From Sulfitobacter aestuariivivens (GTDB lineage Bacteria > Pseudomonadota > Alphaproteobacteria > Rhodobacterales > Rhodobacteraceae): a DNA stretch of 64,000 bases. This document shows positions 37,089 through 45,904 of the stretch, piece after piece; the stretch's first letter is position 1, and each line of letters opens with the position of its first letter. A program made the position numbers and the translations under genes. The stretch is taken from contig NZ_JACTAG010000002.1 in NCBI RefSeq assembly GCF_014763045.1, forward strand, positions 310,001 to 374,000, given 5' to 3'. The notes under the pieces are model-generated. The model did not search any database, was not told the DNA's origin, and saw nothing but the letters and a program-made list of their open reading frames with translations.

Positions 37089-37239
37089 TTCTCACTCCTC
37101 TTCACTGCAAGCAGAACCCGCCACCCGGTGGCACGGTTCCCGACAAAAACGGCACCGCCTCTTTTCATTCCGGTGCAGCAGCAGCATGATCGACAGACAC
37201 ACAAAGGAACCGCACCCGCCCGTGTCTCAGCCTGACCAT

Positions 37240-38880
37240 ATGAACATTCTATTCATCATGTACGATCAGCTACGCTGGGATTACCTGAGTTGCGCGGGGC
37301 ATCCGCATCTGCACACACCGAACTTTGACCGGGTGGCACAAATGGGCGTGCGCTTTACCAACGCCTACGCGCAATCCACCATTTGCGGAGCCAGCCGCAT
37401 GTCGTTCTACACCGGGCGCTATGTGCATTCGCACGGGGCGGCCTGGAATGGTTTCCCGCTCAGAGTGGGGGAACAGACAATGGGCGACCATCTGCGCGCT
37501 GCCGGGATGGCGTGCTGGTTGATTGGCAAAACCCATATGACGGCAGATGCCGACGGGATGGCCCGCCTTGGGCTGTCGCCAGATACAAAGATCGGCGCGC
37601 GTCAGGCAGAATGCGGGTTTGATGTCTGGCATCGCGATGACGGACTGTGGGCACAAGGTCCGGACGGGTTCTATGATGAAAGACGCTCGCCCTATAACGA
37701 ATATCTGAAATCAAAAGGCTATGATGGCGAAAACCCCTGGCACGACTATGCCAACGCCGCCGACACGGATGGCGATATCGCGTCAGGCTGGATTTTCGCC
37801 AATGCCGACAAAGCCGCCAACATCGCCGAAGAAGACAGCGAAACGCCCTGGCTCACATCTGAAACGCTGCGCTTCATGGATCAGGCAAAGGGGCCGTGGT
37901 GTGCCCACGTCAGCTATATCAAGCCGCACTGGCCCTATATCGTGCCGGCCCCCTATCACAACATGTTCGGCGCCAACCAAGTGCCTGCCGCCGCGCGACA
38001 CGCAAAGGAACAAGAGGACGCCCAACCCGTCTTTGCAGCCTACATGCAGAACCGTATCGCACAGGCCTTTCAGCGCGATGAGGTTCGACAGAAAGTGATC
38101 CCGGCCTACATGGGCCTGATCAAGCAATGCGACGATCAGTTGGGCCGCATCCTTGATGATCTGGAAGAAAAGGGCCGGCTGGAAAGCACAATGATCGTGC
38201 TCACCTCCGATCATGGCGATTACCTTGGCGACCACTGGCTGGGAGAAAAGGATCTGTTTCACGACCAGTCGGTGAAGATCCCGATGATCGTCTATGACCC
38301 GCGCGCGCAAGCCGATCCCACACGGGGCACGACCTGCGACGCACTGGTCGAATCCATTGATCTGGCCGCCACTTTCACGTCATTTGCCGGGGCAACGGTG
38401 CCCGCGCATATCCTAGAAGGGCGTGACCTGGCGCCCTGGCTACACGGCCAGACACCGCATTGGCGGGAATACGCGATTTCTGAATTCGACTACTCGGCGA
38501 CGCCGCAAGGGGCAAAGCTGGCGCTGGCCCCACGCGATTGCCGTTTGTTCATGGTTTTTGACGGACGCTACAAGCTGATGCATGCAGAAGGTGGCCTGCG
38601 CCCCATGCTCTTCGACCTGCACGAAGACCCGGATGAATTCGACGATCTGGCCAAAACGTCCGCCGATCACCCCGCGCTCGAAAAACTGTATGGCCATCTT
38701 CACGAGTGGTCGCGCCGGATGTCCCAGCGTGTCACCGTGTCTGATGCCGACATTCTCAACAAGCGCGGCAAATCCCTGCGTCGCGGCGTGCTCCCCTTCC
38801 TGGTCGACGGAACCGAAGTGCCAGCGGAACTGTTTGAAAAATATAGCGGAAAGACGCGCCAGAAACACGCCAAAGACTGA
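37240..38880 (+). CDS. Sulfatase-like hydrolase with CGASR motif
   Basis: This 546-residue protein belongs to the alkaline-phosphatase-fold sulfatase/phosphonate monoester hydrolase family. It has the metal Asp in MNILFIMYDQLRWD (Asp9) and the motif CGASR at 49-53, a Cys convertible to formylglycine by FGE; the usual CxPxR proline is Ala. A second metal site is TSDHGDYLGDH (Asp324, His325). There is no signal peptide, so it is cytoplasmic and acts on an imported ester. I start at the Met of the conserved domain; an in-frame ATG at 37186 also lacks a good ribosome binding site. It is convergent with a NitT/TauT-type ABC operon. Confidence 0.85.
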   Translation: MNILFIMYDQLRWDYLSCAGHPHLHTPNFDRVAQMGVRFTNAYAQSTICGASRMSFYTGRYVHSHGAAWNGFPLRVGEQTMGDHLRAAGMACWLIGKTHMTADADGMARLGLSPDTKIGARQAECGFDVWHRDDGLWAQGPDGFYDERRSPYNEYLKSKGYDGENPWHDYANAADTDGDIASGWIFANADKAANIAEEDSETPWLTSETLRFMDQAKGPWCAHVSYIKPHWPYIVPAPYHNMFGANQVPAAARHAKEQEDAQPVFAAYMQNRIAQAFQRDEVRQKVIPAYMGLIKQCDDQLGRILDDLEEKGRLESTMIVLTSDHGDYLGDHWLGEKDLFHDQSVKIPMIVYDPRAQADPTRGTTCDALVESIDLAATFTSFAGATVPAHILEGRDLAPWLHGQTPHWREYAISEFDYSATPQGAKLALAPRDCRLFMVFDGRYKLMHAEGGLRPMLFDLHEDPDEFDDLAKTSADHPALEKLYGHLHEWSRRMSQRVTVSDADILNKRGKSLRRGVLPFLVDGTEVPAELFEKYSGKTRQKHAKD

Positions 38881-38942: not shown

Positions 38943-39728
38943 TCAGACCCGCCAGCGCAACAGCCGCTTTTCCACCATTCCGATCCCATAAGAGACAATC
39001 ACCCCAAGCACCGACAGGATCACGACCCCTGCAAAAAGCCGCTCCAGGTCATAAAGGCTCCCCGCGTTCAGGATATAGGCGCCGATCCCGTACTCGGCGC
39101 CCAGCATCTCTGCAGCCACCAGCAGAATAATCGCAATTGTCAGCGAGATCCGAAGCCCTGACAGGATGCCGGGCATGGCGCCTGGCAGCACGATCTTCCA
39201 GACGATAGATCGCCAACTCAGCCCGAAACTCTGCCCCATACGAATGAGCGTGCGGTCGACGTTGTCCACCGCGCCATAGGTTGCCACCACCGTAGGCGTG
39301 AATGTCCCGAAGGCGATCAGGGCATACTTGCTGGCCTCATCAATCCCAAACCAGATCACGAACAGCGGCAAGAGCGCGATCTTGGGGATCGGGAATATTG
39401 CCGCAACCAGGGGAACCAACCCGGCCCGGACAAGGCTGAAAAGCCCGATCAGCACGCCGACGGTAATCCCCGCCGTCGCGCCCAGTGCGGCCCCGACAAC
39501 AAGGCGGGTCAGGGACGGAACCAGATGATTGAAAAGCTGCCCGGACTGGTAAAGCTCACCAAAGGTCAACGCCACATCAGAGGGACGTGGCAGCGTTAGC
39601 GAGGTTATCCAGCCTGTCCGCGTCCCCCATTCAGCCATCGCGATCAGCAGGACAAAAACCACCAACCCCACGCCGCGCCGCCGTTCAGGTGTAAAACCAC
39701 CGCCCCGAAAGGTCACGCGTTCAGACAT
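38943..39728 (-). CDS. NitT/TauT-family ABC transporter permease
   Basis: This 261-residue permease (SsuC/TauC type) has a first helix near residues 18-35, then PRPSDVALTFGELYQSG, and about five more helices. The EAA loop lies in SKYALIAFGTFTPTVVATYGAVDNVDRTLIRMGQSFG. Typical ligands are nitrate, taurine, alkanesulfonates, thiamine precursors and aromatic acids. The start at Met 13 of the longest frame is chosen because the ATP-binding gene ends inside it (eight-base overlap). It is last in a three-gene operon. Confidence 0.9.
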   Translation of the reverse strand: MSERVTFRGGGFTPERRRGVGLVVFVLLIAMAEWGTRTGWITSLTLPRPSDVALTFGELYQSGQLFNHLVPSLTRLVVGAALGATAGITVGVLIGLFSLVRAGLVPLVAAIFPIPKIALLPLFVIWFGIDEASKYALIAFGTFTPTVVATYGAVDNVDRTLIRMGQSFGLSWRSIVWKIVLPGAMPGILSGLRISLTIAIILLVAAEMLGAEYGIGAYILNAGSLYDLERLFAGVVILSVLGVIVSYGIGMVEKRLLRWRV

Positions 39729-40488
39729 GCAACAGCTCTGCGTCCGCTGCAGCCGCCTCGTCACGCATCAGTCCCCACAGATGCTGCTGTTGCCGCTCAA
39801 GCATCGCATCCCCATGGGCGCGCTCGGCCAGCGGCAGATCGATCTCGACCACGTCCCTTACCTGCCCGGGACGGCGCGACAGCACGACGATTTGGTGGCC
39901 CAGACGCACCGCTTCAGCCAGATTGTGGGTGACATAGACAGCCGTGAAGGGCGCGCGCGTCCAAAGCCCCACAAGATCATCCATCAAAAGCTCGCGCGTC
40001 TGCGCATCCAGCGCCGAAAGCGGTTCATCCATCAGCATCACTGCCGGGTTAACGGCCAAAGCGCGGGCAATGGCCACGCGCTGTTTCATGCCGCCTGATA
40101 GCTGCTTGGGCAAGGCCGCGCGAAATTCGCTCAGCTTGGTGCGCACCAGAACGTCGGCAATGATCTGCGCCCGCTCAGCCGCACCCAGCCCATGATCTTC
40201 CAGAACCAGCGACACGTTGCCTTCCACCGTGCGCCAGGGCAGCAGCGCGAAGTCCTGAAAAATATACGTCAGCGGGTTGAGGCACCCGGCGGGCGGTGCG
40301 CCCAGCTGGAGTACCTCGCCCGCAGTCGGTTTTTCCAAACCGCCCAGCAGCCGAAGCAAGGTGGACTTGCCACATCCCGACGGGCCGACAATACAGACAA
40401 TGCGGCCTGACGGAAAATCCAGCGAGATATCCCGCAAGACTTCCGTTTCACCGTATTGGTGGTGAATATTCCGGGCTCTCAGGTCCAA
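39721..40488 (-). CDS. NitT/TauT-family ABC transporter ATPase
   Basis: This 255-residue ATPase has Walker A VGPSGCGKST, a Q-loop in TYIFQDFALLPWRT, signature LSGGMKQRVAIARAL, Walker B MLMDEPLSALD and H-loop YVTHNLAEA. The proposed TTG start is preceded by GGAG at seven bases; an ATG 25 codons upstream adds a Pro/Gly/His-rich extension unlike the family. It is the middle gene of the operon, downstream of the binding-protein gene and overlapping the permease gene by eight bases. Confidence 0.88.
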   Translation of the reverse strand: MDLRARNIHHQYGETEVLRDISLDFPSGRIVCIVGPSGCGKSTLLRLLGGLEKPTAGEVLQLGAPPAGCLNPLTYIFQDFALLPWRTVEGNVSLVLEDHGLGAAERAQIIADVLVRTKLSEFRAALPKQLSGGMKQRVAIARALAVNPAVMLMDEPLSALDAQTRELLMDDLVGLWTRAPFTAVYVTHNLAEAVRLGHQIVVLSRRPGQVRDVVEIDLPLAERAHGDAMLERQQQHLWGLMRDEAAAADAELLHV

Positions 40489-40573
40489 CGTAGGGCTCCG
40501 CAGGAGGGGTGGCACACGCCACCTCCCCGCATGACCCGATGATGGGTGCGAACCCCCATCCAAAGGCCAAAGG

Positions 40574-41593
40574 TCACGCCCCTACTGTCTCCACGTAGGA
40601 GGTATCGATCAGCTGATCGAGAGTGATGCCGGCATCCACCAGATCCTCGGATTGGAACCACTCCAGCTGATCGCGCACAGAGGCGACGTTCAGTTTGGCC
40701 CCTTCGTTCAATCGCATGGTACCGTTGATGATGGATGGCGCCGCCTTTTCGCGCGGACGGTCGGTGTAGACGTACTTGTGAATAAGATCGACCATCTCGT
40801 TCACCCCGTCATCGCCCCCCGATTTGTCGATCATGGTGCTGTTGTAATCGCTGACACCCTTCGAGAACCCGCCAAGGAAGCTCTTGGTCATCTCCTGCTC
40901 ATCGCTGGCATTGGTGGCAGAGGTAAAGACGGTGGTGACCTGATAATCGGGAAGATAGGTGGCAATATCGCCAATGATATGCACCGCGCCGGACCCGCTG
41001 AGCGGTTTGGCGATATGCGGCACGATCGACCATGCGTCGATCTGGCCCGATTTGAGCGCGCCGATGATGGCGCCGACCTTTTGCAGCGGCTTGAAAGACA
41101 TTTCGATGCCTTCCGCCGCTGCGATCTTGGACCCCATATAATGGAACGATGACCCGGGCTGCGTCACGCCCCAGCTTTTGCCTGCCAGCTTGGCCGGTGT
41201 GTCGATACCGGCCTGCATCGCCGCATCGGACACAAGGATCTTCTGACCGTCGATCCCCGCCTCCTCCTGCAGGGCCCCACCGATCACCTTGATCGCGCCC
41301 TTGTCGGCCAATGAAACCAGTCCGCCCGAAATGGCGGTAACCGCATAATCCACATCGCCACTTGCGATTGCCACCGCCATTGGCTGGGCCGCCTGAAAGA
41401 ACCGCAACTCCACATCAAGACCAGCATCCGCAAAGTAGCCGCGTTCAAACGCGACAAAACTGCCTGAATGACTGGTAAAGCGCAGCGCGCCCACAGTGAT
41501 TTTTCTGTTCTGCGCCAGCGCCGGGGCCGCGAGCCCCACAGCTGTTGCGGCACCCATTGCGCCTAACATCGTGCGACGGTTGAAATGCGTCAT
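40574..41593 (-). CDS. NitT/TauT-family ABC substrate-binding protein, Tat-exported
   Basis: This 339-residue protein starts MTHFNRRTMLGAMGAATAVG, a twin-arginine signal peptide with cleavage near PALAQ. The mature part has the NMT1/SsuA-like fold: VGALRFTSHSGSFVAFERGYFADAGLDVELRFFQAAQPMAVAIASGDVDYA in pieces across residues 33-90. Tat export means folding before export, perhaps with quality control. The gene is divergent from the reductive dehalogenase gene across about 106 bases, and I propose it feeds the dehalogenase its substrate (inference from context). Confidence 0.9.
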   Translation of the reverse strand: MTHFNRRTMLGAMGAATAVGLAAPALAQNRKITVGALRFTSHSGSFVAFERGYFADAGLDVELRFFQAAQPMAVAIASGDVDYAVTAISGGLVSLADKGAIKVIGGALQEEAGIDGQKILVSDAAMQAGIDTPAKLAGKSWGVTQPGSSFHYMGSKIAAAEGIEMSFKPLQKVGAIIGALKSGQIDAWSIVPHIAKPLSGSGAVHIIGDIATYLPDYQVTTVFTSATNASDEQEMTKSFLGGFSKGVSDYNSTMIDKSGGDDGVNEMVDLIHKYVYTDRPREKAAPSIINGTMRLNEGAKLNVASVRDQLEWFQSEDLVDAGITLDQLIDTSYVETVGA

Positions 41594-41602
41594 TTTCTCT
41601 CT

Positions 41603-41685
41603 CCCATTATCAGTAATTTGATCAAGAATGGGCAGCGCTTGGTTGTAGAGTCAAGCGCTGACACTGGCATTCTCATGGGCAGTGT
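41603..41685. promoter_or_regulatory. Divergent control region with three inverted repeats
   Basis: Between the binding-protein gene and the dehalogenase gene lie three inverted repeats in series: CCCATT-N18-AATGGG (41603-41632); CAGCGCTTG-N10-CAAGCGCTG (41633-41660, perfect 9-bp arms); and ACACTG-N13-CAGTGT (41661-41685). They abut almost end to end. The middle one is the best operator candidate. They probably control the transporter and the dehalogenase together. No regulator gene was found beside them. Confidence 0.45.
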
Positions 41686-41699
41686 GGAACACCATTGGC

Positions 41700-44600
41700 A
41701 TGAAACTGTTCTCTGCCCGGTCCCGCCCTGTGCACATGGGAAGCTACCCATTAGAGCGCCTGCGTCGTCTGACCAAGCCGATGGATGAGTTGCCGCAAAT
41801 CCCCTTTCCGACACTTGATTTTGACCGCCCGGACGACCCCGAAAGCATCGTCAATGCCATGGGGCCCTTCCAAACGATGATGGATGTGCTGCGTTCCGGG
41901 AAAATAAATGCCGCCGAAGCGAATATACCCGATGACCCGGCAACACGCGCAGAACACCTCAAGGCCTTCGGTTACTACAACGATGCGTCGATGATGGGCA
42001 TCTGTGCCCTGCCACATGCAGCCCGCCTTGCCAGCCCCCGCCGCAATGCTGACCGGGACCGTCTGGCGCGTGATCTGCGCGAAAAACAGACCAAGACACT
42101 GGCCGCGGGGGTCGATGTGATCATGGCCAACCTGCGCGAAGCCGCGTCAGCGCCCGAGCACGATTTGGGCGCGCACACCCATGCCATCGTCATCCTGCAG
42201 GCTTTCCCTCGAGATCCACGCGGTGACGAGACTGGCACAGATTGGATCAGGGATGCGCAGGCCCACCGCGCGGCGATCCGCACCTCCGAAAATGCCACCG
42301 TGCTGGCCGAATACATTCGCCAGCTGGGATTTGACGCAAGCGCGCATTCGCCAACCGCCTCGGACGTGCATCTGGGTCAGCTAACCCTTGCTGCCGGCCT
42401 TGCTGTGTTCGAGAACGGCATCCTGCAGGCCCCATGGGTTGGTGATCGATTTGGGGTCGCCGTGGTGACAACCGACATGGCTCTTGCCGCTGACTTGCCC
42501 CTCGCCCCACTGGCGCAGCAACCGTGGTCCGTGCTCAAGGGCCCCCATTGGCAATTGGGCACCCACGGCGGCCTCTCTGCCCGCACCCAGGACCCCTATG
42601 CGCGCCGTGACTTTGCGGATGGCCCGCATCCCTTCGAGACACTCAAGCGCGTAAAGGACCCCACGACCTATATCGACGCACCCAACATCCCCCGCGTGCC
42701 AAAGCGTACGGATATGTTCGCACGTGGCCAGTTCGGCGATATGGGCCCGAAAGTGCAGAACGCCATGTTGGGCGGCCACCACATCATCAAAAGCGCACCA
42801 TCTGCGGCGCAACGGCCCTTGTTGGGCGCAATGATCTTGTTACAGGATGGTCCGGTTGCCTCCGAGGCGCTTCAGCCAGATACCGCGCGCAACGCCGCCA
42901 ACCTCAAGGCGGCCAGCTATTTTCTGGGCTCGGATGCGACGGGCCTTTCGGCGTGTCCCGACTGGGTCTGGTACAGCCATGACCCCACCGGCACACCCAT
43001 CGATCCCCCGCACGATCAGGCGGTCAGCATCATCATCGACCAGGGCTATGACACGATGGAAGGGGCGTCAGGTGACGACTGGATCAGCGTGGCCCAGTCC
43101 ATGCGCGCCTACCTGCGGTTTGCCATTCTGGGCGGCATTCTGGCGCAACACCTGCGCAACCTAGGCTACCCTGCAAAGGCGCACACGGTCATGGACGGGG
43201 ATATCCTGCAGCCCCCTCTGCTGCTGTTGTCCGGACTGGGCGAGGTCAGCCGCATCGGCGAAGTTATTCTCAATCCTTTTCTGGGGCCGCGCCTCAAATC
43301 CGGCGTCGTCACGACCACCTTGCCGGTCAACCACGATAAGCCTATTGATTTCGGTCTGCAAAAGTTCTGCGAAGCTTGCAACAAATGCGCGCGCGAATGC
43401 CCGTCCGGCGCGATCACCGCAGGGCCCAAGACCATGTTCAATGGCTATGAAATCTGGAAAAGTGACAGCCAGAAATGCGCCACCTACCGGATCACCAACC
43501 AAGGCGGCGCGATGTGCGGGCGCTGCATGAAAACCTGTCCGTGGAACCTCGAAGGCCTCTTTGCCGAAGCGCCGTTTCGGTGGGCCGCGATGCGCATGCC
43601 AACCGCGGCACCAATGCTTGCCAGGCTGGATGACAAGGTTGGCAAAGGCCGCCTCAACCCCATCAAGAAGTGGTGGTGGGACATCGAAATGAATCGGGAG
43701 ACGGGCCGTTTCGATACACCCGCGGCACCGGTCAACGAACGCGACCTGCAAACCGATCTTGATCTGAAGTTCGAGGATCAGACCCTTGCAGTCTATCCGG
43801 CCCCGCTTGCCCCCCATCCGTGGCCCTACCCGGACCCGATGAACCGCGAGGCCGGTATCAAAGCGCATGCCGCTCTCCTTTCGGCAGACGAACACCGCGC
43901 CCGAAACGCCGCCGGGAAGACCGATCATCTGCACCTTTATAATCCGGGGACCGATGCGCCGGTCCTGGATTTGCGCATCAGCGACATTCAGGCGCTCAGC
44001 GACAGCGTAACCCTATACGAGCTGACCCACGCGCTAGGTCACGACCTGCCCGCATGGACCGCAGGCGCGCACCTTGATCTGGTTGTCGCGCCAGAGTTTC
44101 TACGCCCCTATTCGCTATGTTCCGACCCGGCCGACCGCAGCCGGTATCATGTGGCGGTTCTGCGCGAGGACGCAGGGCGCGGTGGATCCACCATGCTGCA
44201 CCGCATCTTCACGAAAGGCCGTCGCGTCTTTGTGGGCAAACCAGAGAACCACTTTGAACTTGTTGAAACCGCGCCCCATTCCCTGTTGATGGGCGGCGGC
44301 ATCGGGATCACGCCCATGATCGCTTTTGCACACCGTTTGCACGCACTTGGCCAGCCTTTCGAGCTTCACTATTCCGCCCCGTCCCGGAAAGCGGCGGCCC
44401 TTCTTGACAGTCTCGCCGCCCAAGCGTGGTCAGATCACGTGCACTTTCATATCTCGGATGAAGGTACCCGGTGTGATCTCGGGGCTGTCACATCCGCGGC
44501 ACCTGCAGGCGCGCACGTCTATACCTGCGGTCCTGATGCCTACATGCAGGCGGTGATTGATGCGGCTGAAATCGCAGGCGTGCCCGAGGACAACCGCCAT

Positions 44601-44906
44601 CTGGAATACTTCTCCACACCTGAGGTGCCAGAGTACGTCAATCATCCCTTCACCCTGCGTCTGAAAACAGGACGCGAAATCACCGTCGCTGAGGATCAAA
44701 CCGCATCGGATGCGCTCATTGATGCGGGAATCCCGGTGGACATCAAATGCTCGGATGGTATTTGCGGCGTGTGTAAGTGCGGTGTCACATCCGGCAAGGT
44801 TGAACACCGCGATTTTGTGCTTTCGGCCCGACAAAGGGAAACGGCGATGATCCTGTGCCAGTCCCGTGCGGCGGACCCGGACGGGGTCCTGGAGATTGAT
44901 CTATGA
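41700..44906 (+). CDS. rdhA: Self-sufficient reductive dehalogenase fusion protein
   Basis: This 1068-residue cytoplasmic protein fuses two enzymes. Residues 1 to about 690 are a corrinoid-dependent reductive dehalogenase of the catabolic type (NpRdhA/BhbA class), with two ferredoxin motifs: Cys557, 560, 563, 567 (CEACNKCARECP) and Cys593, 606, 609, 613. Residues about 740-1068 form a phthalate-dioxygenase-reductase-like module: flavin motif RPYS at 802-805, NAD-binding GGGIGITPM near 863, and plant-type [2Fe-2S] ligands Cys1017, 1022, 1025 and 1053. Electrons would flow from NAD(P)H to cobalamin within one chain. No Tat signal is present, unlike respiratory RdhA. Size and layout match BhbA (about 1075 residues). 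The start favours MKLFSARSRP; ATGs at 41682 and 41736 are alternatives. Confidence 0.93.
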   Translation: MKLFSARSRPVHMGSYPLERLRRLTKPMDELPQIPFPTLDFDRPDDPESIVNAMGPFQTMMDVLRSGKINAAEANIPDDPATRAEHLKAFGYYNDASMMGICALPHAARLASPRRNADRDRLARDLREKQTKTLAAGVDVIMANLREAASAPEHDLGAHTHAIVILQAFPRDPRGDETGTDWIRDAQAHRAAIRTSENATVLAEYIRQLGFDASAHSPTASDVHLGQLTLAAGLAVFENGILQAPWVGDRFGVAVVTTDMALAADLPLAPLAQQPWSVLKGPHWQLGTHGGLSARTQDPYARRDFADGPHPFETLKRVKDPTTYIDAPNIPRVPKRTDMFARGQFGDMGPKVQNAMLGGHHIIKSAPSAAQRPLLGAMILLQDGPVASEALQPDTARNAANLKAASYFLGSDATGLSACPDWVWYSHDPTGTPIDPPHDQAVSIIIDQGYDTMEGASGDDWISVAQSMRAYLRFAILGGILAQHLRNLGYPAKAHTVMDGDILQPPLLLLSGLGEVSRIGEVILNPFLGPRLKSGVVTTTLPVNHDKPIDFGLQKFCEACNKCARECPSGAITAGPKTMFNGYEIWKSDSQKCATYRITNQGGAMCGRCMKTCPWNLEGLFAEAPFRWAAMRMPTAAPMLARLDDKVGKGRLNPIKKWWWDIEMNRETGRFDTPAAPVNERDLQTDLDLKFEDQTLAVYPAPLAPHPWPYPDPMNREAGIKAHAALLSADEHRARNAAGKTDHLHLYNPGTDAPVLDLRISDIQALSDSVTLYELTHALGHDLPAWTAGAHLDLVVAPEFLRPYSLCSDPADRSRYHVAVLREDAGRGGSTMLHRIFTKGRRVFVGKPENHFELVETAPHSLLMGGGIGITPMIAFAHRLHALGQPFELHYSAPSRKAAALLDSLAAQAWSDHVHFHISDEGTRCDLGAVTSAAPAGAHVYTCGPDAYMQAVIDAAEIAGVPEDNRHLEYFSTPEVPEYVNHPFTLRLKTGREITVAEDQTASDALIDAGIPVDIKCSDGICGVCKCGVTSGKVEHRDFVLSARQRETAMILCQSRAADPDGVLEIDL

Positions 44907-45904
44907 GAACCGCCCTTGTGACCGGATCCTCAGGCTTTATCGGCTATTTTACGTCGCTGGCACTGCTTGAGGCCGGCTGGCGCGTGGTCGGCTTTGACAG
45001 CCTGTCGGACTACTACGACGTCACTCTCAAGGAACGCCGCCAGCAGATGCTGTCGGAGCATGAGAACTTCAGCGTTATCAATGATACCCTTGAGACACCT
45101 GATCGCTTGATGCTGCTTTTTGCGGACCAACGGCCCGACATCGTGATCCATCTGGCCGCCCAGGCGGGTGTGCGCCATTCCATCGATGCGCCACGCGCCT
45201 ATCTCAACGCCAATCTCATCGGCACCTTCGAATTGCTCGAGGCCGCGCGCGCCTATCCGCCAAAACACATGCTGCTGGCATCAAGCTCGTCGATATTCGG
45301 TGCCAACACGGAAATGCCCTACCGCGAGGCAGACAAGGTGGACACACAAATGTCCTTCTATGCCGCCACCAAGAAAGCGACCGAGAACATGGCGCATTCC
45401 TACGCGCATCTTTACGCGCTGCCCACGACGATGTTCCGCTTTTTTACCGTCTACGGTCCCTGGGGGCGCCCTGATATGGCGCACTTCAAATTCACCAAGG
45501 CAATCCTGCAGGGCGATCCCATAGACATCTACAACCACGGCAAGATGCAGCGGGATTTCACCTATATCGACGATCTCGTCGCTGCGATCATCGCGCTGAT
45601 CGACAAGTTGCCCGACCCGGCCCATCCGGTGGCTGGCGACAGTGTCTCTGCCGTGGCGCCGTTTCGCACTATCAACATCGGCAACAATGCCCCGGTATCG
45701 CTGATGGACTTCGTGCAGGCGATCGAGGTCGCCTGCGGCACCGAAGCCATCAAGACATTCCACCCGATCCAGCCGGGCGATGTGCCTGCCACATGGGCCG
45801 ATACGTCTCTTCTCAACACGCTCATCGGGCCACGCGCGGCCACTCCCCTTGCCACAGGTCTGCAGCGCTTTGTGGATTGGTACCGCGGCTACTACAAGAT
45901 CTGA
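44903..45904 (+). CDS. UDP-glucuronate 4-epimerase-like NAD-dependent epimerase
   Basis: This 333-residue extended SDR protein has the NAD motif TGSSGFIG (residues 7-14), the catalytic SSSSIFG segment and YAATK (YxxxK), plus FFTVYGPWGRPDMA, which is typical of UDP-glucuronate 4-epimerases supplying galacturonate for polysaccharide. Its ATG overlaps the dehalogenase stop codon (ATGA), so they are co-translated. No sugar-polymer cluster is nearby, and the link to dehalogenation is unexplained. Confidence 0.88.
   Translation: MRTALVTGSSGFIGYFTSLALLEAGWRVVGFDSLSDYYDVTLKERRQQMLSEHENFSVINDTLETPDRLMLLFADQRPDIVIHLAAQAGVRHSIDAPRAYLNANLIGTFELLEAARAYPPKHMLLASSSSIFGANTEMPYREADKVDTQMSFYAATKKATENMAHSYAHLYALPTTMFRFFTVYGPWGRPDMAHFKFTKAILQGDPIDIYNHGKMQRDFTYIDDLVAAIIALIDKLPDPAHPVAGDSVSAVAPFRTINIGNNAPVSLMDFVQAIEVACGTEAIKTFHPIQPGDVPATWADTSLLNTLIGPRAATPLATGLQRFVDWYRGYYKI

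Follow-up and report, generated by a model that had tools for sequence, protein, structure and literature searches.

The closest described systems are other reductive dehalogenases (RdhA). JtRdhA of Jhaorihella thermophila (WP_104007082), a self-sufficient RdhA from a marine host that was purified and assayed (published 2023), is driven by NADPH, works in air, debrominates and deiodinates ortho-halophenols and is inhibited by chlorophenols, as described in the accessible part of its report, which also names a duplicated corrinoid domain as characteristic of catabolic RdhAs and includes RdhAs of Ruegeria pomeroyi, Tropicibacter and Pseudovibrio in its tree (PMC10463259). Ros_A3X954 of Roseobacter sp. 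MED193 was expressed and assayed (published 2026) and debrominates 2,6-dibromophenol, and the accessible part of that paper describes putative bhbA homologues as widespread in the Roseobacter clade (PMC13101508). Two further relatives are BhbA, encoded on plasmid pBHB of Comamonas sp. 7D-2 (WP_015585978), and the structurally solved NpRdhA of Nitratireductor pacificus (PDB 4RAS, 6ZXU). Here we analyse a gene, rdhA, in a 64,000-nucleotide stretch of the Sulfitobacter aestuariivivens genome (contig NZ_JACTAG010000002.1, positions 310,001 to 374,000; hereafter the window). To judge from its sequence, the product very probably belongs with the self-sufficient catabolic reductive dehalogenases of the BhbA/JtRdhA type and would be both cytoplasmic and oxygen-tolerant.

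The rdhA frame is uninterrupted on the forward strand, running to position 44906 from either a GTG at 41682 or an ATG at 41700. The ATG, which gives a protein of 1068 residues (41700–44906), is the likelier start, since it marks the residue at which alignment with the NpRdhA start begins. The original prediction, made from the letters of the window, had placed the product in the RdhA class, and this is borne out: it scores 179.4 bits against TIGR02486 (NCBIfam RDH; cut-off 160.35), and its best solved relatives are the NpRdhA structures (E = 2e-156 for 4RAS, over residues 1–105 and 158–743), with 43% identity (251/581 aligned residues). Identity to BhbA is 49–50% across the whole protein length. 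Alignment with NpRdhA and profile comparison place the functional corrinoid-binding core at residues 395–551 (42882–43352, forward strand, as for all parts of the protein given below). It is followed by two [4Fe-4S] motifs, whose cysteines lie where the prediction had them: C557/560/563/567 (43368–43400) and C593/606/609/613 (43476–43538). Residues 80–270 (41937–42509) form a vestigial duplicate of the corrinoid-type domain; an hhalign comparison with residues 395–551 gave a probability of 99.6 (E 1e-23), versus 0.1 for the reductase domain, used as a negative control. Within this duplicate, residues 106–157 (42015–42170) are in the alignment about 42 residues longer than their NpRdhA counterpart (102–111), and this extra stretch may correspond to the insert over the active site that the accessible text of PMC10463259 describes as specific to fusions of RdhA with a phthalate dioxygenase reductase (PDOR).

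The C-terminal part of the protein likewise matches what had been predicted, namely a fused flavin, NAD and [2Fe-2S] reductase. Residues ~755–1065 (43962–44894) form a PDOR-type domain (flavin, NAD(P), plant-type [2Fe-2S]): the last ~310 residues match phthalate dioxygenase reductase (2PIA, 1e-50) and the reductase domains of self-sufficient P450s (1e-58 and 1e-55), Fer2 (Pfam) is matched at 38.8 bits (cut-off 21), and the domain carries the flavin motif RPYS and [2Fe-2S] cysteines at 1017/1022/1025/1053. A twin-arginine translocation (Tat) signal, one criterion for a respiratory RdhA, is not visible at the N-terminus on inspection by eye, in line with the prediction. Another such criterion is the membrane anchor RdhB; the genes on either side of rdhA code for the binding protein of an ABC importer and for a sugar epimerase.

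The prediction had singled out the Tyr, Lys and Arg of the corrinoid pocket for comparison with NpRdhA. All three are present (Y471, K533, R597), and the alignment shows identity at six pocket positions: NpRdhA F291, S422, M423, Y426 (the proton donor), K488 and R552 correspond to F340, S467, M468, Y471, K533 and R597. S467, M468 and Y471 are encoded at 43098–43112, K533 at 43296–43298 and R597 at 43488–43490. These six residues, together with the eight [4Fe-4S] and four [2Fe-2S] cysteines, are invariant in 148 of 148 intact homologues and in the window protein (149/149). Seven of 155 loci, which are split, partial or cut off, were left out of this alignment (L013, L017, L046, L048, L052, L171 and L186), and the 148 homologues are not all distinct, some genomes being present in two collections (L019 and L160). 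Copies of rdhA that a frameshift or internal gap has split were seen at L013, L017, L046 and L186 and in genome G099, reflecting occasional gene decay or assembly errors.

The same data bear on the concern, raised with the original prediction, that the closest relatives might prove to be epoxyqueuosine reductases (QueG) only. QueG and RdhA belong to one cobalamin class, according to the accessible part of PMC10463259, and the QueG model TIGR00276 does align weakly with the rdhA product, so that a QueG, or another corrinoid iron–sulfur protein, might be misread as a dehalogenase. However, the TIGR00276 score is 18.2 bits, far under the cut-off of 200, whereas TIGR02486 exceeds its own cut-off, and the NpRdhA substrate residues, the duplicated corrinoid domain and the PDOR fusion are all present. 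We therefore reject a QueG identity and regard any misreading of this kind as extremely improbable.

For the reductive dehalogenase, the sequence comparisons show its architecture, domain duplication, conserved residues and distribution; we infer the cofactors, electron path, substrate class, oxygen tolerance and chemistry from JtRdhA and NpRdhA. NAD(P)H would reduce the flavin of the C-terminal reductase, from which single electrons would reach base-off cobalamin by way of the reductase [2Fe-2S] cluster and then both [4Fe-4S] clusters. The substrate, an ortho-bromo- or ortho-iodophenol, would bind cobalt through its halogen, with the phenol oxygen gripped by K533, R597 and S467, and Y471 would donate a proton to the ring carbon as the halide departs. 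The phenol left after halogen loss would then enter aerobic aromatic catabolism. The genome encodes PobA, for 4-hydroxybenzoate use (687 bits, above cut-off), and the cobaltochelatase CobN, which carries out one step in making cobalamin (1020.6 bits over the frame, above cut-off). A second CobN-like protein of the same genome (G000:C7:847736-850519) falls below the CobN cut-off and is possibly BchH, in which case the host would be a bacteriochlorophyll-bearing aerobe.

Several observations weigh against this assignment or parts of it. Pfam Dehalogenase (PF13486) is not among the matches of the rdhA product at E values up to 1. The hydrophobic part of the NpRdhA pocket is given in the accessible text of PMC7565698 as F290, F310, P311, A419 and M423; M423 is kept in the window protein, whereas F290, F310, P311 and A419 align with M339, H361, I362 and V464, although around position 310 the alignment contains gaps and is uncertain. 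Because these four residues are replaced, substrate preference may differ from that of NpRdhA, and sequence does not fix the substrate. Position 464 itself varies among the 149 aligned proteins (V 110, C 24, T 6, S 5, A 4). Scanning 20 neighbouring open reading frames (ORFs) revealed no recognisable cluster for aromatic degradation, unlike at the loci of BhbA and of its homologue in Nitratireductor OM-1. Finally, of the cobalamin pathway the search covered CobN, so that a whole pathway may, but need not, be present.

The original prediction had named BhbA as the closest precedent by layout. BhbA does have the same full-length layout, but it is encoded on an IncP plasmid beside genes for a protocatechuate dioxygenase, a porin and a transporter, whereas the window rdhA lies on a 1.65-Mb contig. 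When layout and habitat are taken together, the nearest precedent among characterised enzymes is instead JtRdhA, which, going by its published description rather than by sequence identity, shares the RdhA–PDOR fusion, the lack of a Tat signal, the duplicated cobalamin domain, the equivalents of Y426/K488/R552 and a marine host, albeit of another species. NpRdhA shares the corrinoid core, the iron–sulfur motifs, the substrate and catalytic residues and the vestigial domain, but has no fused reductase, lacks the extra residues at 106–157 and differs at the four pocket positions just described. Ros_A3X954 can be likened by description, in the accessible part of its report, as a catabolic reductive dehalogenase of a marine roseobacter with no Tat signal. 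The fusion, as the prediction had recognised, and the roseobacter host are thus both already published, and the window gene adds one more example.

The best named relatives of the rdhA product come from Sulfitobacter species (73–80% identity over the best segment), in agreement with the roseobacter-like host that had been predicted. A match at 1e-100 is found in 53 of 62 genomes of the genus, the window's own included. In a sample of the family, 128 of 295 genomes match at 1e-60; after removal of 15 in which the match is to the reductase domain only or to a fragment, 113 remain, among them still an RdhA that has no reductase (G033) as well as a few copies that are split or partial. Within the genus the gene is thus close to fixation, and it is widespread across the family; this, together with the published roseobacter enzymes JtRdhA and Ros_A3X954, leads us to reject the claim that its novelty lies in its genomic setting. 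Two papers name both Sulfitobacter and reductive dehalogenase, each term once. The figures 53/62 and 113/295 measure how common rdhA is, and it is these and the arylsulfatase lead discussed below that make the locus interesting, rather than its fusion or its host. Roseobacters that debrominate phenols aerobically plausibly contribute to the marine bromine cycle, and enzymes of this kind are sought for the removal of brominated flame retardants. Most of the protein is also encoded in eight plasmid records: two from Tritonibacter and one each from Ruegeria, Jannaschia, Yoonia, Aminobacter, Comamonas (BhbA) and Nitratireductor. Full- or near-full-length homologues outside Rhodobacterales, with 47–61% identity and mostly from metagenome-assembled genomes (MAGs), were seen at L027 and L048 (Acidimicrobiia), L037 (Gammaproteobacteria), L043 (Caulobacterales), L045 (an Emcibacteraceae MAG) and L049 (Pseudomaricurvus), pointing to horizontal transfer or binning error.

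In the window, rdhA is preceded by a sulfatase gene on the forward strand and three ABC genes on the reverse strand, and is followed on the forward strand by an epimerase gene, then by an ORF without Pfam match and reverse-strand genes of CoA-ester metabolism. The ABC genes (38943–41593) encode, according to Pfam, an SsuA/NMT1-type importer comprising a permease (38943–39764), an ATPase (39721–40563) and a binding protein (40574–41593); they diverge from rdhA with 106 bp between, and TIGR01728 is matched at 51 bits, below the cut-off of 163.5. The importer may possibly serve the rdhA pathway, although the link is weak: a relative of the binding protein lies near rdhA at 9 of 15 Sulfitobacter-clade loci (one of which, L010, has almost no upstream sequence), at none of the other named loci and, in another genus, at L056. 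We therefore reject it as an obligate partner. The downstream gene (44903–45904) encodes an NAD-dependent sugar epimerase/dehydratase by Pfam; its ATG lies across the rdhA stop, with a 4-bp overlap, so that it is probably co-transcribed with rdhA, while its function is probably unrelated. It lies downstream of rdhA at 9 of 15 Sulfitobacter-clade loci and at no other named locus, and upstream at L122; given this restriction we think a functional partnership unlikely. A scan of 41500–41800 found no promoter or terminator.

To view rdhA in a wider range of contexts, we used neighbourhoods fetched for 100 of the 113 family genomes; four of 101 loci were dropped because rdhA was lost in ORF calling, leaving 97, the window included, nearly all from different genera. 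Of these loci, at most 12 share any one similarity group within 3.5 kb of rdhA, and the largest groups are MarR regulators, synteny of close relatives, or generic families identified by eye (ABC ATPases and short-chain dehydrogenases). rdhA thus behaves as a self-contained gene in many contexts, which is consistent with an enzyme able to work without partner proteins.

The same survey bears on the purpose of the reaction. Toxic halophenols of algal and animal surfaces might be reduced for detoxification rather than nutrition, with the product excreted or left, so that a catabolic operon would be unnecessary. A recurrent catabolic partner was indeed not recognised around rdhA in the 97 loci (families mostly named by eye), and nine of them have a gene for a MarR-family regulator no more than 102 bp from rdhA (Pfam-confirmed in 9/9), as does, at ~80 bp, a Jannaschia plasmid (L086). 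MarR-family regulators often sense phenols, and a MarR gene beside rdhA is likely to act as a ligand-responsive switch. The nine loci are L154, L157, L158, L165, L169, L172, L175, L177 and L179; here and on the plasmid the regulator is on the same strand or divergent. However, synteny extends further among at least five of the nine (L165, L169, L172, L179 and others), which means fewer than nine events, and in the window rdhA has no MarR gene next to it. Moreover, protocatechuate and 4-hydroxybenzoate genes surround those for BhbA and its Nitratireductor OM-1 homologue, and PobA is present in the window's own genome. We consider detoxification a credible explanation, but less likely than not.

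The sulfatase gene upstream of the importer (37186–38880, forward strand) encodes an arylsulfatase-type sulfatase of the SpAS1/SpAS2 family (4UPL, 1e-220; 4UPI, 2e-184; Pfam Sulfatase), with a formylglycine-type motif, CGASR, at residue 67 and no signal peptide seen by eye. Its nearest solved relatives thus include 4UPI, which is SpAS1, an arylsulfatase of Silicibacter pomeroyi; SpAS1 and SpAS2 are described in the accessible part of the source as lacking choline-sulfatase activity (PMC5870055). 4UPL is labelled merely as a sulfatase family protein in the structure listing. SpAS2 turns over 4-nitrophenyl sulfate, with a tabulated kcat/Km of ~2e5, the substrate of the table not being evident from the accessible part of the report (PMC12917725). 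NpRdhA holds its substrate through the phenol hydroxyl, according to the accessible text of PMC7565698, and lanosol-4,7-disulfate is listed among the major metabolites that were extracted from Vertebrata lanosa, a red alga (PMC9322897). By our reading of the chemistry, the 4-sulfate of lanosol would mask a phenol ortho to bromine. We therefore tentatively propose, as a possibility that we still find rather doubtful, that the natural substrates include bromophenol sulfates of algae and invertebrates, from which the cytoplasmic SpAS-type sulfatase would free the hydroxyl before RdhA removes the ortho-bromine with NAD(P)H in air. This proposal is compatible with the dehalogenase assignment, and the SsuA-type importer may supply the sulfate ester. 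If true, it would provide a natural substrate class for both enzyme families, link marine bromine cycling with that of sulfate esters and suggest what the enzyme does in the sea.

The proposal draws on recurrent adjacency. At six loci, in separate lineages and with either gene order, a relative of the sulfatase is encoded on the rdhA strand less than 200 bp away. The gap is 80 bp in a Sulfitobacter MAG (L011; same contig as G348), 1 bp in Aliiroseovarius (L021) and 170 bp at L137 (G064); the order is reversed in two Rhodobacteraceae MAGs, with a gap of 8 bp in one (L039) and an overlap in the other (L046), where the rdhA copy is split; and in G343 the two matches are 128 bp apart, the sulfatase being just 55% identical to that of the window. 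Among the matches listed, which omit some weaker sulfatase copies, the pair lies within 10 kb in at least seven family genomes (G000, which is the window's own, G251, G064, G137, G176, G057 and G081) against ~0.75 expected under uniform gene placement, a 4-Mb genome and 1.4 copies. Without G000 the count is at least six (P ~1e-4). G000 and G251 may represent one event because an ABC gene is also shared (L056), and counting G251 with G000 leaves at least five others (P ~1e-3). An earlier statement of a link between reductive dehalogenases and sulfatases was not found in the open-licence PMC literature, and the SpAS-type arylsulfatase appears to be an unreported recurrent neighbour of rdhA.

The linkage is nevertheless sporadic. 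The at least seven genomes, again among the matches listed, compare with 86 family genomes that have both genes; in the genus the pair lies within 10 kb in 8 of 44 genomes with both, most of the eight probably sharing one ancestral locus; in most genomes with rdhA the sulfatase is not nearby; and in the window itself the three opposite-strand ABC genes stand between the two. Co-occurrence across genomes is strong but not specific. The sulfatase is present in 86 of 113 family genomes with rdhA versus 56 of 182 without (raw counts, shared ancestry included), but a control sulfatase (L187; 32/113 versus 11/182) and a second RdhA-like protein of the window's genome (28/113 versus 12/182) co-occur with rdhA too, so that the association may just mark larger catabolic repertoires, and we set it aside as evidence. 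No copy of the control sulfatase lies within 10 kb of rdhA, the nearest being at 13.4 kb, although this is a weak control: 0.27 copies are expected, and even an eightfold enrichment would give zero ~12% of the time.

The second RdhA-like protein is encoded outside the window (G000:C7:272514-273788; L001 886-2160; L189 10515-11789) and has 424 residues as called, without a reductase domain. It scores 180 bits against TIGR02486, over the cut-off, and just exceeds the cut-off of PF13486. By E-value it is nearer to respiratory PceA-type structures than to NpRdhA, and no Tat signal is evident by eye. Its gene and divergent cytochrome bd genes are 79 bp apart; in three relatives viewed with short flanks, no cydA was seen next to it. 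This second RdhA is present in 40 of the 295 family genomes.

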